32,531 nucleotides of DNA, taken from the NCBI GenBank assembly GCA_035285325.1, contig JAYKJB010000066.1, forward strand, positions 1 through 32,531, in the 5' to 3' direction. The DNA comes from Candidatus Sericytochromatia bacterium. Lineage in GTDB: Bacteria > Cyanobacteriota > Sericytochromatia > S15B-MN24 > JAQBPE01. The notes under the pieces are model-generated. The model did no database searches and was not told the DNA's origin. It was given only the letters and a program-made list of their open reading frames with translations. Of the stretch, positions 19,754 to 23,730 are shown one piece after another. Positions within the stretch are counted from its first letter, which is position 1; each line of letters opens with the position of its first letter. The translations under genes were made by a program, and so were the position numbers.

Positions 19754-20287
19754 TTATTTAAGAACCGATTCAATCAGGCTGTCGGGCGGCAGGGTGTGCC
19801 CGGTGAAACGAATCGTCCCCTGGCGGTCCACCAGCACAGCGGTGGGCAGACCACGAATCTGATAGGCCTCGGACACCTTCAACTCCTGGTCCAAGAGCTG
19901 GGGATAGGTCAATTGGGCAGTTTTCACCAGCCGGTGCCGTCCTTCGTCGGTGTCATTCACATTGATGCCCACGACTTCAAGGCCGCTGGAGCCAAACCGA
20001 CGGTGCAACGATTCGACGTGCGGAGCCTCCGCACGACAGCCTCCTCACCAGGAGGCCCAGAACACCATCAAGGCCGCCCGTTTGTCCCGCAAGCTCGACA
20101 GCTTCCAGTTGTCGCCCCGCTCCGTGGCCAGGGCCACCTCGGGGGCCCCGACCTGCGAGGGCGGCGCCATCGTGAGGCGCTCGGCCGAGATGGGGGGGAA
20201 ACCTTGCCACAGCCACAGCCCCGCCAGCAGGAACGGCACGCTGAAGCCGAGCCAGGCCGAGCGAAACGGGAGGAGGGGTGGGGTCAT
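19754..20287 (-). CDS. TlpA-like thioredoxin with in-frame TGA at the first active-site cysteine; candidate selenoprotein
   Basis: A single reading frame of 177 codons interrupted only by TGA at 20045-20047 (codon 81). Before it: an ATG with AGAAGGTGA 5 nt upstream, a membrane anchor (about 11-29) and the TlpA approach strand ending in FWASW. After it, in the same frame: G-G-C-RAEAP, a GINVNDTDEG strand, the cis-proline GLPTAVLVDRQG (Pro148) and a normal C-terminus. The motif is thus W-U-G-G-C if TGA is read as selenocysteine, against WCxxC in ordinary TlpA. A hairpin at the SECIS position follows the TGA. If TGA is a stop, neither half contains a working redox centre, and restart at the TTG of codon 94 would lose Cys84 as well. 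Alternatives are a nonsense mutation or a base error. It would act as a membrane-tethered thiol reductase or oxidase outside the cytoplasm. Confidence 0.8.
20017..20035 (-). promoter_or_regulatory. Candidate bacterial SECIS hairpin after the in-frame TGA
   Basis: On the mRNA strand, CGUGCGGA, loop GGC, UCCGCACG form a perfect 8-bp stem. The stem starts 9 nt and the loop 17 nt after the UGA at 20045-20047. Bacterial SECIS elements lie inside the coding region just 3' of the UGA, with a short loop carrying a G in its first positions, as here. If the top A-U pair opens, the loop reads AGGCU, close to the AGGUCU loop of E. coli fdhF. Confidence 0.65.
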
Positions 20288-20308
20288 CAGGGTCACCTTC
20301 TGCCACTG

Positions 20309-20425: not shown

Positions 20426-21973
20426 TCAGAACAGGGAGGGCAGGGTTTGGCTGCCGGGTTGCAGCAGGTGCTGAACGCTGCCGAGTTCCCGATCATCTTT
20501 ATCTTTGGCTTTGAAAATCAAGGCACAACCTTCGATGACCTTGAGTTCCACCTGAAGCAGACCACCCCTGCGTTCAACGTCTCGTTCATCCAGTTTGGCC
20601 CCATTGTCCGCGCGGTGAACGCTGACTTCCTCGATCCCGGTCGCGTTCACCGTGAAGGTCTTGCGTGTCTCGGGGCCGCAGGCCCCTGAGGGCGCCGGAC
20701 TGCCGGTGCCGCTTCCCGCGTTGGAGTTGCCGCTGCCCTTGTTGGCATCGCTGCTGCCCGTGTTGTCGCTTCCGCTGCTCGCGTTGGCGTTTCCACTGCC
20801 CTTGCTGGCATCGCTGCTGCCCGTATGGATGCTGCCGCTGCTCGTAGGGGCGTTTCCACTGCCCTTGTTGGCATCGCTACTGCCCGTGTTGTCGCTGCCG
20901 CTGCTCGCGTTGGCGTTTCCGCTGCCCTTGTTGGCATCACTGCTACCCGTATGGCCGCTGTCGCTGGCCCGGTCGATGTTGCTGTGACCCGTGCCGGTGA
21001 CGCCGCCGGCCTTGCCCGCGTCGCTGCTGCCCGCATCGGCGTGACCGCTGGCCTTGCCGGCGCCCTGAGGAGGGGGATTGACGTTGCCACTGGCCTTGCT
21101 GGCACTCCCTGGGTCCCGGACCTCCGCCTGGCTTCGTTCGACTTCCTTCGCTTCACCGGATTCGTCCCGTTCACCCGTCGCCTTCGGCAGCGGGTCGGGC
21201 AGGGCTTTGGCCAAGGCCGCCTCCAGCATCGTGACCTGGCTGCGCAGCGTGGCCACCTCGTTCAGCAGGGCCTTCATGGCCCGGCTCACGGCCGTGGCGT
21301 CGGTGAAATCTGGCAGCTTGGTGGCCACCAGCGACTGCGCGGTGGATTCGCTGGCTTCCTGAAAGCGAGCCGGGTCGAAGTCTCCCAGCGGCTTGCCGCC
21401 CAGTTCCTCGACCAGGTTGCTCGTCACCAGCGTGGTGGCTGGGTCGAGCCGGGTTTGAATTTCCGGTTTGGTGGTCCGGATCAGGCTGCGGAAGGTGGCC
21501 GCTGCCCCGCCGAAGGTGGGCACCTCGGCGGCCACCACGAAGGACAGGCCGGCCGGCACCCTGGGCAAGCTGAATTCGCCACCGGCATCGGTTCGCACGG
21601 GCGCCACTTCCGGGAGGCTCTGACCCGCTGCGTCGGTCAGAATGACCCGCGCGCCTTCCACGGCCACGGTGTCCAGAGCGAGCAGGCGGTACGTCGTGCG
21701 CGCGCCCTGAAAGCCCGCCGGGCTGATCAGCGAGATGCCCCGGTCACTGATCAAGCCGAGGCCACGGTCGCTGACCAGCTTGACGCCGGCCCCCACCGCC
21801 AGCCCACTGGGAATGCGCACGGTGCCGCGAACCGGCACGTACTGGACGCGGGCGGCGGCCGCGCGAGGACGCGCCGCGCCGAGCTTGCTCTCGCTGGTCT
21901 CCGGGGGCGTGACCGTGACCCTGCAGGCCGTCAGGGCCGCGACGCTGAAAATGAGAAGCCCGCCATGACGCAT
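20426..21973 (-). CDS. Repeat-rich lipoprotein with LISDRG repeats, regulatory-like beta domain and Ser/Gly/Asn tandem repeats
   Basis: 515 residues from ATG at 21973 with GGGGAAGGTG about 5 nt upstream. The signal peptide ends in LTAC (Cys17). Residues 66-88 are nearly identical 8-residue units (LVSDRGLG, LISDRGIS, LISPAGF). A carboxypeptidase-regulatory-like domain follows (about 95-150, VEGARVILTDAAGQSL...GGEFSLPRVPAG), then the family segment with DPATTLV, LGDFDPARFQ and LPDFTDATAV and a short coiled coil (about 235-260). Residues ~285-430 are low-complexity, including four 21-residue repeats. A small beta domain with two cysteines ends the protein. It is a paralogue of the 22105 gene. 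The function is unknown; the architecture suggests a surface-exposed stalk. Confidence 0.85.
   Translation of the reverse strand: MRHGGLLIFSVAALTACRVTVTPPETSESKLGAARPRAAAARVQYVPVRGTVRIPSGLAVGAGVKLVSDRGLGLISDRGISLISPAGFQGARTTYRLLALDTVAVEGARVILTDAAGQSLPEVAPVRTDAGGEFSLPRVPAGLSFVVAAEVPTFGGAAATFRSLIRTTKPEIQTRLDPATTLVTSNLVEELGGKPLGDFDPARFQEASESTAQSLVATKLPDFTDATAVSRAMKALLNEVATLRSQVTMLEAALAKALPDPLPKATGERDESGEAKEVERSQAEVRDPGSASKASGNVNPPPQGAGKASGHADAGSSDAGKAGGVTGTGHSNIDRASDSGHTGSSDANKGSGNANASSGSDNTGSSDANKGSGNAPTSSGSIHTGSSDASKGSGNANASSGSDNTGSSDANKGSGNSNAGSGTGSPAPSGACGPETRKTFTVNATGIEEVSVHRADNGAKLDERDVERRGGLLQVELKVIEGCALIFKAKDKDDRELGSVQHLLQPGSQTLPSLF
20693..20944 (-). repeat. Four 63-nt tandem repeats coding 21-residue Ser/Gly/Asn/Asp units
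   Basis: Four in-frame copies of a 63-nt unit encode SSDANKGSGN followed by ANASSGSDNTG or variants. Copies 1 and 3 encode nearly the same unit; copy 2 carries APTSSGSIHTG and copy 4 degenerates. The in-frame period allows copy-number change without frameshift. Confidence 0.85.
21710..21778 (-). repeat. Eight-residue LISDRGLG-type repeats, degenerate copy
   Basis: 24-nt period coding LVSDRGLG, LISDRGIS and LISPAGF (residues 66-88 of the lipoprotein). Same repeat as in the 22105 gene but more diverged. Confidence 0.75.
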
Positions 21974-22010
21974 GGGACACCTTCCCCCGCGTTCAGGGAA
22001 AAAGCCGACA

Positions 22011-22025
22011 CGTTCCTTCCATACC
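22011..22025 (-). promoter_or_regulatory. GGTAT-type upstream element of the 20426 lipoprotein gene
   Basis: GGTATGGAAGGAACG on the minus strand, about 50 nt before the start. It is similar to elements before the 22105 gene and the kinase gene. An inverted repeat ATACCC-GAA-GGGTAT (22021-22035) overlaps it. Confidence 0.4.
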
Positions 22026-22095
22026 CGAAGGGTATCCTTTTAACCGGTTCCGAAGGGGCATCTCGTGGCGCGGCAGCCGCTCGAACTTGGTTCGC

Positions 22096-22119
22096 TCAGG
22101 CCGGTCAGGGAGGGCCTGA
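22096..22119 (-). terminator. Weak hairpin at the end of the 22105 lipoprotein gene
   Basis: TCAGGCC (22096-22102) and GGCCTGA (22113-22119) form a 7-bp stem around a 10-nt loop overlapping the stop codon. There is no T-run. Confidence 0.25.
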
Positions 22120-23730
22120 CGGGAACAGGGTCGGGAGCGACTGGGCGCCAGGCGCGACCAGAATGCGCTGCGTGCCGATGGTCTGCATGCGCGCATCCAG
22201 GCCGTCGATCTCCAGCGGACAGCCCTCCACGATCTTCAGCCAGACCGTGCGCCCAGGAGCATCGACGCTCTCACTGTCGATCTTCTCCAGTCCGCTGGGG
22301 GTGACCAGGCGAACGACCAGATGGACGACGTTTGGATCGCCCACCTGGAAGGCGCGCTCGATTTGTGCTGAGCAGCTGGGTGCCGCTGGCTGACTGGGCG
22401 GCGGAGAAGTTGGTTGCGGTGGCTCTGGCAGCACCAGCGGGATTCCCAGCAGCGCGGGGGTGATCGCGTGCTGGAACAGCCCCATCAGGCGGCCTTGTTG
22501 ATCGAGGTAGACCAGCCACACCGGGCATCCCAGCGGCACCACGCCGGCGAAATTCGACGCGCGCTTCAGCGCCGCCAGCAGGGGTGAGGCATGCGGGGGA
22601 ACGCCCGCCGCCACGCGTCGGATTTGCAGGGTGCTGACCAGGGGGTGGGCGATGGCCGGGGCGCGCTGCCCGACCAGGCAGCCTGAGAAGGCGGGGGAGT
22701 CAGGCCTTTCCAGGCTGGCCTGGCTCCAGTCGCTTGCGCTGGTGGGCGTGCTGCTGGCCTTGGGGGGAGTGCCCGGAGGGGCCGTGGCCGAGGGCGCTTG
22801 AGCAGACTCAGCAGGTTTGGGCGTGTCGTTGGATGCCCCCGTGGGCGTGGCGGTGGCGGTGGGCGCTCCCGAAGCCGGGATAGACGTCTCGGCCGGGCGC
22901 TCCGGGGGCTGGCTCGCCAGGCTGGCCTTGAGGGCGGACAGTTCCTGGCGCAAGGCCGCCAGGGTGTCGCGCAACTCGGCCACCTCCTGACTCAGCCGTT
23001 GCATCTGGCGGCGCACGTCGGCGGCGTCGGTGAAGTCCGGCAAGCGTTCGCTGGTCAGTTGCTGCGAGGTGGCCTCGGTGGCGCGCTGGAACTGGGCCGG
23101 ATTGTAGCTGCCCAGCTCGCCATCCGGCAGGCCTTCCAGCACGTGGCCCGTCACCAGCGTGCTGGCCGGGTCGATCTGGGTGCTGGCGCCCGCTTCCCCC
23201 ACCTTCACCAGGCTGCGGAAGGCGGCCGTTTTGCCGCTGGGCGTGGGCACCTCGGCCGAGACGACGAAGGGGAGGCCGGCCGGGACGCGGGCCATGCGGA
23301 AGCGGCCCTCGGCATCCGTCACCACCGACGGAATGTCGGGAATGGGCTGTCCGGCGGCGTCCGCCAGAAACACGCGCGCCCCCTCCACGGCCGATGTTTC
23401 GAGGGCCTGCAGGCGATAGCGTGGCCTGTCCACCTCCACGAACGAAGGGCCTCGCGCGCGCTGGAGACCCACGCCGCGGTCGCTGATCAGGCCGAGCCCG
23501 CGATCACTGATCAGCCCGAGCCCGCGGTCGCTGATGAGGCGGACGCCGGCCGCCACGCTGAGCGTTCGTGGAACCCGGAGTTGCCCCTCCAGCGGCACCC
23601 GAGGCGCTTCGGCCACCTTGGTCGCACGGCTGGCGGCTTTGCGTCCGGGCTCGGCGGGGGGCGCCGGTGGTGCCTGGCAGGCGGCCAGGGTGATCAGCAT
23701 CAGGAGCGTAGCGGCCAGGGAGGTGCGCAC
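22105..23730 (-). CDS. Lipoprotein with LISDRGLG repeats and regulatory-like beta domain, paralogue of the 20426 gene
   Basis: 541 residues. The start at 23730 is GTG with no convincing ribosome site. The signal peptide ends in LAAC (Cys18). Domain order equals that of its neighbour: LISDRGLG repeats (65-88), a carboxypeptidase-regulatory-like domain (about 100-160, VEGARVFLADAAGQPI...GRFRMARVPAG), the family segment (DPASTLV, LGSYNPAQFQ, LPDFTDAADV), a coiled coil (about 240-270) and a Thr/Pro/Ala-rich linker (about 275-345). It then has a unique domain around 350-430 (SGCLVGQRAPA...NFAGVVPLGCPVWLVYLDQ) before the shared C-terminal domain (WLKIVEGCPLEIDG, GAQSLPTLF). The two genes probably arose by duplication; only the central low-complexity regions are unrelated. 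Confidence 0.85.
   Translation of the reverse strand: MRTSLAATLLMLITLAACQAPPAPPAEPGRKAASRATKVAEAPRVPLEGQLRVPRTLSVAAGVRLISDRGLGLISDRGLGLISDRGVGLQRARGPSFVEVDRPRYRLQALETSAVEGARVFLADAAGQPIPDIPSVVTDAEGRFRMARVPAGLPFVVSAEVPTPSGKTAAFRSLVKVGEAGASTQIDPASTLVTGHVLEGLPDGELGSYNPAQFQRATEATSQQLTSERLPDFTDAADVRRQMQRLSQEVAELRDTLAALRQELSALKASLASQPPERPAETSIPASGAPTATATPTGASNDTPKPAESAQAPSATAPPGTPPKASSTPTSASDWSQASLERPDSPAFSGCLVGQRAPAIAHPLVSTLQIRRVAAGVPPHASPLLAALKRASNFAGVVPLGCPVWLVYLDQQGRLMGLFQHAITPALLGIPLVLPEPPQPTSPPPSQPAAPSCSAQIERAFQVGDPNVVHLVVRLVTPSGLEKIDSESVDAPGRTVWLKIVEGCPLEIDGLDARMQTIGTQRILVAPGAQSLPTLFPSGPP
23467..23538 (-). repeat. Three 24-nt repeats coding LISDRGLG
   Basis: Three tandem 24-nt units encode LISDRGLG, LISDRGLG and LISDRGVG (residues 65-88). 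The DNA copies differ mainly at third positions, so the protein repeat appears to be selected. Confidence 0.85.

Follow-up and report, generated by a model that had tools for sequence, protein, structure and literature searches.

A probable TlpA/ResA-like selenoprotein gene with an in-frame TGA at the first catalytic cysteine, from a non-photosynthetic class of Cyanobacteriota

Selenocysteine (Sec) in a UxxC motif has been described in more than one family of redox proteins. A thiol-disulfide isomerase-like selenoprotein of the TlpA-like family cd02966, carrying UxxC, is known from the Sargasso Sea (PMC1088965; listed in PMC13188914), and a Prx-like thiol:disulfide oxidoreductase selenoprotein with UxxC or UxxU is placed in PF00578 (PMC9312934). 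Cyanobacteria appear to lack Sec use, according to a review (PMC9312934). One Sec-bearing protein has been noted in a 'Candidatus Melainabacteria' record (PMC9529120), so a sighting at the level of the phylum is not wholly new; no mention of Sericytochromatia together with selenocysteine was found in the papers searched. Here we describe a gene on a 32,531-nucleotide stretch of DNA from a Candidatus Sericytochromatia genome (the whole stretch is called the window below) in which a UGA at residue 81 of a TlpA/ResA-type protein is very probably read as Sec. Support at the level of sequence comes from the anatomy of the gene, the Sec machinery of the genome, the pairing of the TGA with Cys in homologues and the predicted fold, and from these we infer Sec insertion itself as well as the location and substrate of the product.

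The initial annotation had proposed a complete TlpA-type protein in one frame broken by a single TGA, giving no strand. Read-through translation confirms the frame, and direct reading places the gene on the minus strand, running 20287..19754, with the following features:

19754..20287, minus strand: tlpA/resA-like gene of a probable selenoprotein, 177 aa with the proposed Sec81 (read-through translation; PF00578, NCBIfam and PDB matches)
20294..20299, minus strand: Shine-Dalgarno-like AAGGTG, 6 nt 5' of the ATG (sequence read)
20287-20285, minus strand: start ATG (sequence read)
20204..20254, minus strand: predicted N-terminal membrane helix, residues 12-28 (AlphaFold2 helix and hydrophobic sequence)
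20047-20045, minus strand: the internal TGA, put forward as the Sec codon, in place of the first WCxxC cysteine (invariant Cys column in homologues)
20036..20038, minus strand: intact TGT codon of the resolving Cys84 of UxxC (alignment and sequence read)
19844..19846, minus strand: cis-Pro codon, P148 of the GLPT motif (invariant in alignment; sequence read)
19756-19754, minus strand: terminal TAA (sequence read)

The read-through product is MTPPLL...FWASW-U-GGCRAEAPH...IRGLPTAVLVDRQG...SLIESVLK, with GLPTAVLVDRQG also lying between GGCRAEAPH and the final SVLK. The frame is open apart from the one internal stop at residue 81. TGA is the normal stop of 10 of the 12 window ORFs checked, so the genetic code has not been reassigned wholesale. 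A CrtC-type lipocalin gene lies downstream and repeat-rich, secreted-looking ORFs lie upstream, neighbours that indicate no pathway. Two adjacent, paralogous-looking ORFs of 515 and 541 aa occupy 20426-23730 on the minus strand; both have lipoprotein-like starts and SDRGLGLISDRG repeats, one has a low-complexity GSSDANKGSGN tract, and neither has a Pfam match.

When the TGA is translated as X, PF00578 is hit at 74.4 bits (cut-off 26), and Redoxin is also matched. In an alignment with six homologues, F76, W77, A78, W80, C81, C84 and P148 are all invariant, and the TGA falls on the column that is Cys in 6/6, precisely where the first redox Cys had been expected from the sequence. Among solved structures, ResA and TlpA are the nearest in sequence, the ResA match in the PDB scoring 69.6 bits. 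An AlphaFold2 model, built from seven sequences with Cys standing in for Sec, has a mean pLDDT of 80.8, with about 90 across the thioredoxin domain, and a helix at residues 12-28; Foldseek ranks ResA first, and most of the top matches have a TM-score by target length of 0.82-0.86. The thioredoxin fold, W-C-x-x-C and cis-Pro that mark TlpA/ResA-like proteins are thus all present, with the proposed Sec replacing the first Cys. Assignment by name was rejected for ResA (NF002854, 81.1 bits against a cut-off of 170, the highest-scoring NCBIfam subfamily), TlpA (NF047696, 56.6 against 230) and WAxxUGC_long (NF041054, 75.7 against 300, the motif here being UGGC and not UGC), all far under their cut-offs; DsbE (TIGR00385) reached 45.3 against 123.15. 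As every named NCBIfam subfamily cut-off is missed, naming stops at 'TlpA/ResA-like'.

An active-site Cys lost to a nonsense mutation, with early decay of the gene behind it, would give the same internal stop. The composition offers this reading something, as GC3 falls from 0.94 5' of the TGA to 0.70 3' of it, a value that is as low in about 6% of equal-size stretches in the other window ORFs. The downstream half is nevertheless intact as had been claimed for it: no second in-frame lesion was seen across the 96 codons 3' of the TGA, and the cis-Pro and the C-terminal ResA/TlpA fold are retained at high predicted confidence. The TGA moreover sits at one particular codon among about 177, that of the catalytic Cys, and chance is unlikely to have placed a nonsense mutation there, as the initial annotation had reasoned. 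A pseudogene is accordingly a very unlikely explanation, and the complete Sec machinery of the genome makes a further argument against it.

That machinery was located in the genome bearing the window (3.83 Mb in 138 contigs, 98.58% complete, 2.96% contamination), where the search for sel genes proposed at the outset returned selA, selB, selC and selD, the full genome-level trait for Sec decoding. Contigs are given by number:

C5:74901-75992: selA, 475.7 bits
C5, directly after selA: selB, score over its cut-off
C86:2472-2564: tRNA-Sec (selC) with anticodon UCA, 71.6 bits against a gathering threshold of 47
C23:39504-40430, minus strand: selD, 380.7 bits, with an in-frame TGA
C121:8443-8808, minus strand: Bcp-type peroxiredoxin with DDTPG-U-THEL (TxxU), a second probable selenoprotein of the genome

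ARAGORN calls the UCA tRNA as tRNA-SeC(tca). The TGA of selD stands in the context AG-U-ASKLGPG, the canonical Sec site of SelD (the UxxK motif is listed as such in PMC9312934), and a strong hairpin follows it. SelD would itself require Sec for its own synthesis, which implies a working Sec system. Binning error is an unlikely source of the machinery, since the SelA tree agrees with taxonomy (the genome pairs with G001, a member of its own family, and the remaining rows group by family and genus) and the GC of the contigs concerned agrees at 0.67-0.68; the selA-selB neighbourhood is also the same in that family member. Cys may substitute for Sec at UGA when selenium is short, in other systems. 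On this ground a selenium-free reading of the UGA can be considered, in which the codon stands for Cys, supplied by a UCA tRNA charged with Cys or by sulfur misloading, or for some other residue. SelA and SelD, the latter with its own Sec codon, and a UCA tRNA that scores as tRNA-Sec all argue the other way, and this is the least probable of the alternatives, exceedingly so.

In the Sec reading, the codon would be followed by a SECIS element, and a candidate is found immediately 3' of the TGA:

20017..20035, minus strand: SECIS-like hairpin CGTGCGGA-GGC-TCCGCACG (folding, -12.3 kcal/mol; within the bSECIS constraints)

It has an 8-bp stem and a 3-nt GGC loop that starts 17 nt past the TGA. The bSECIS constraints allow a loop of 3-9 nt and a stem of 4-16 bp at 16-37 nt from the UGA, with a G in the first two loop positions and an energy of at most -7.5 kcal/mol (PMC13188914), and the hairpin agrees with all of them. 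A structure-specific test against 20,000 synonymous recodings gave P = 0.0019, while the folding energy of the whole region 3' of the TGA did not differ significantly from synonymous recodings (P 0.07-0.34). In window genes, 11% of coding positions reach -7.5 kcal/mol and 1.3% match the strength of this hairpin; with that many nearby positions equally strong and the whole-region energy ordinary, the hairpin is supporting evidence that is modest taken alone. Similar hairpins (P 0.002 to 0.04) follow the TGA in two UGHC genes of relatives, SelD and three peroxiredoxins, and other TGA genes are without one. The bSECIS model does not fit some other class genes with a catalytic TGA (G001:C334 and G007:C28), and for this reason it was not applied as a filter.

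The wider class shows the same placement of TGA. The sample comprised 18 genomes, seven with SelA and 11 without a convincing SelA, and the genes counted were AhpC/TSA-family matches to PF00578, 61 in the former and 55 in the latter. An in-frame TGA occurs in 12 of the 61, in all 12 cases in one of two catalytic columns: four are the first position of UxxC (the window gene, two UGHC and one ULFC) and eight fall where peroxiredoxin-type proteins have their peroxidatic Cys. No catalytic-site TGA was found among the 55 genes of the SelA-negative genomes, a contrast with a Fisher P of 3e-4 that is indicative only, as genes within one class are related. Those 55 genes yielded a single TGA, in G017:C6, which is not catalytic: the frame breaks there behind a FTFVCP site that is itself intact. 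An apparent TGA in G001:C311 was rejected on account of an upstream stop and an intact Cys.

Other loci with TGA codons came to light alongside these. The three further UxxC redoxin-like genes of relatives read T-U-GHC (G007 and G004) and G-U-LFC (G010), and in each the hairpin loop lies 25 nt past the TGA. One 27 kb contig carries both selA and a TPG-U peroxiredoxin (G004:C25:5000-19000). An acidobacterial AhpC/TSA-like gene (L025, 5100-5111) reads RGAW-TGA-P-TAA-S, its catalytic site being occupied by TGA and a TAA following; it is either a decayed selenoprotein gene or an assembly error.

What weighs against the Sec reading, besides the drop in GC3, is that the TGA is known from one draft genome and that no close orthologue was found at E <= 1e-20 among 97 relatives, nor in a scan of genome contigs. 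A single draft genome leaves room for a base-call error, in which case a sequencing or assembly mistake would hide a true Cys codon, the protein would be an ordinary CxxC TlpA-like protein, and Sec would be used elsewhere in the genome. Such an error must, however, strike one particular codon and yield TGA and not another codon, at a column type where the family TGAs of Sec-positive genomes invariably fall, and with a fitting SECIS-like hairpin behind it. An error on these terms is very improbable, if slightly less so than a pseudogene.

If the UGA is indeed read as Sec, SelB and Sec-tRNA(UCA) would recognise the hairpin just 3' of it and place Sec at position 81. The product would be of TlpA/ResA type, would carry the redox motif U-G-G-C and would face the periplasm, probably anchored in the cytoplasmic membrane via its N-terminal helix. 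The selenol of Sec81 may then attack a disulfide or oxidised substrate, with Cys84 resolving the selenenylsulfide. On this mechanism the protein is most likely a thiol-disulfide reductase, and by analogy with ResA and TlpA it might act on cytochrome c or oxidase maturation proteins or on oxidised thiols.

The origin of the DNA in a cyanobacterium-related lineage, proposed from the letters alone, is borne out by the distribution of photosystem II. CP43/CP47-type proteins are present in the checked genomes of the same phylum outside the class, bar one family of ~2 Mb genomes, and are absent from all 18 class genomes, which identifies the phylum as Cyanobacteriota and the class as non-photosynthetic. 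No convincing SelA was found in the 368 non-class genomes of a 386-genome phylum sample, where the best score was 24 bits against 421-488 for true SelA. It is possible, though doubtful, that Sec use has been inherited vertically and over the long term in this non-photosynthetic class (probably Sericytochromatia) and lost in phototrophic Cyanobacteria and in the other non-photosynthetic group, the ResA-like protein being a lineage-specific Sec invention for periplasmic redox control. The result points to a functioning Sec trait in one class of a phylum, Cyanobacteriota, for which reviews list none, and a comparison of these deep branches could test when Sec was gained or lost relative to oxygenic photosynthesis. 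There is also a practical side, in that standard annotation would split or truncate the window gene and its companion selenoprotein genes.

The initial annotation had called this a new TlpA-like selenoprotein. The selenoprotein part of that claim is supported, and the novelty needs correcting: UxxC selenoproteins of both the TlpA-like (cd02966) and the Prx-like (PF00578) type had been listed before (PMC13188914, PMC9312934), and the window protein is therefore not a new kind of protein but a new member of a known one. The fresher part is the lineage, since Sec use in this branch is barely documented. Bacillus subtilis ResA and Bradyrhizobium TlpA have the same fold and active-site layout but use CxxC and no Sec, where UxxC is proposed here. 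WAxxUGC_long shares the ResA-like domain and the WAxx-U context, and differs in its U-G-C spacing, against U-x-x-C in the window protein, and its 354-position model. The Prx-like selenoprotein has UxxC and belongs to PF00578, which is also the best Pfam match of the window protein, whereas the latter, with FWASW-U-GGC, is nearer to ResA and TlpA than to peroxiredoxins. The Sargasso Sea selenoprotein, compared by its description, likewise combines the TlpA-like family with Sec in UxxC; the window protein is set apart by coming from a genome of a Cyanobacteriota class and by standing without a close relative in the genomes searched.
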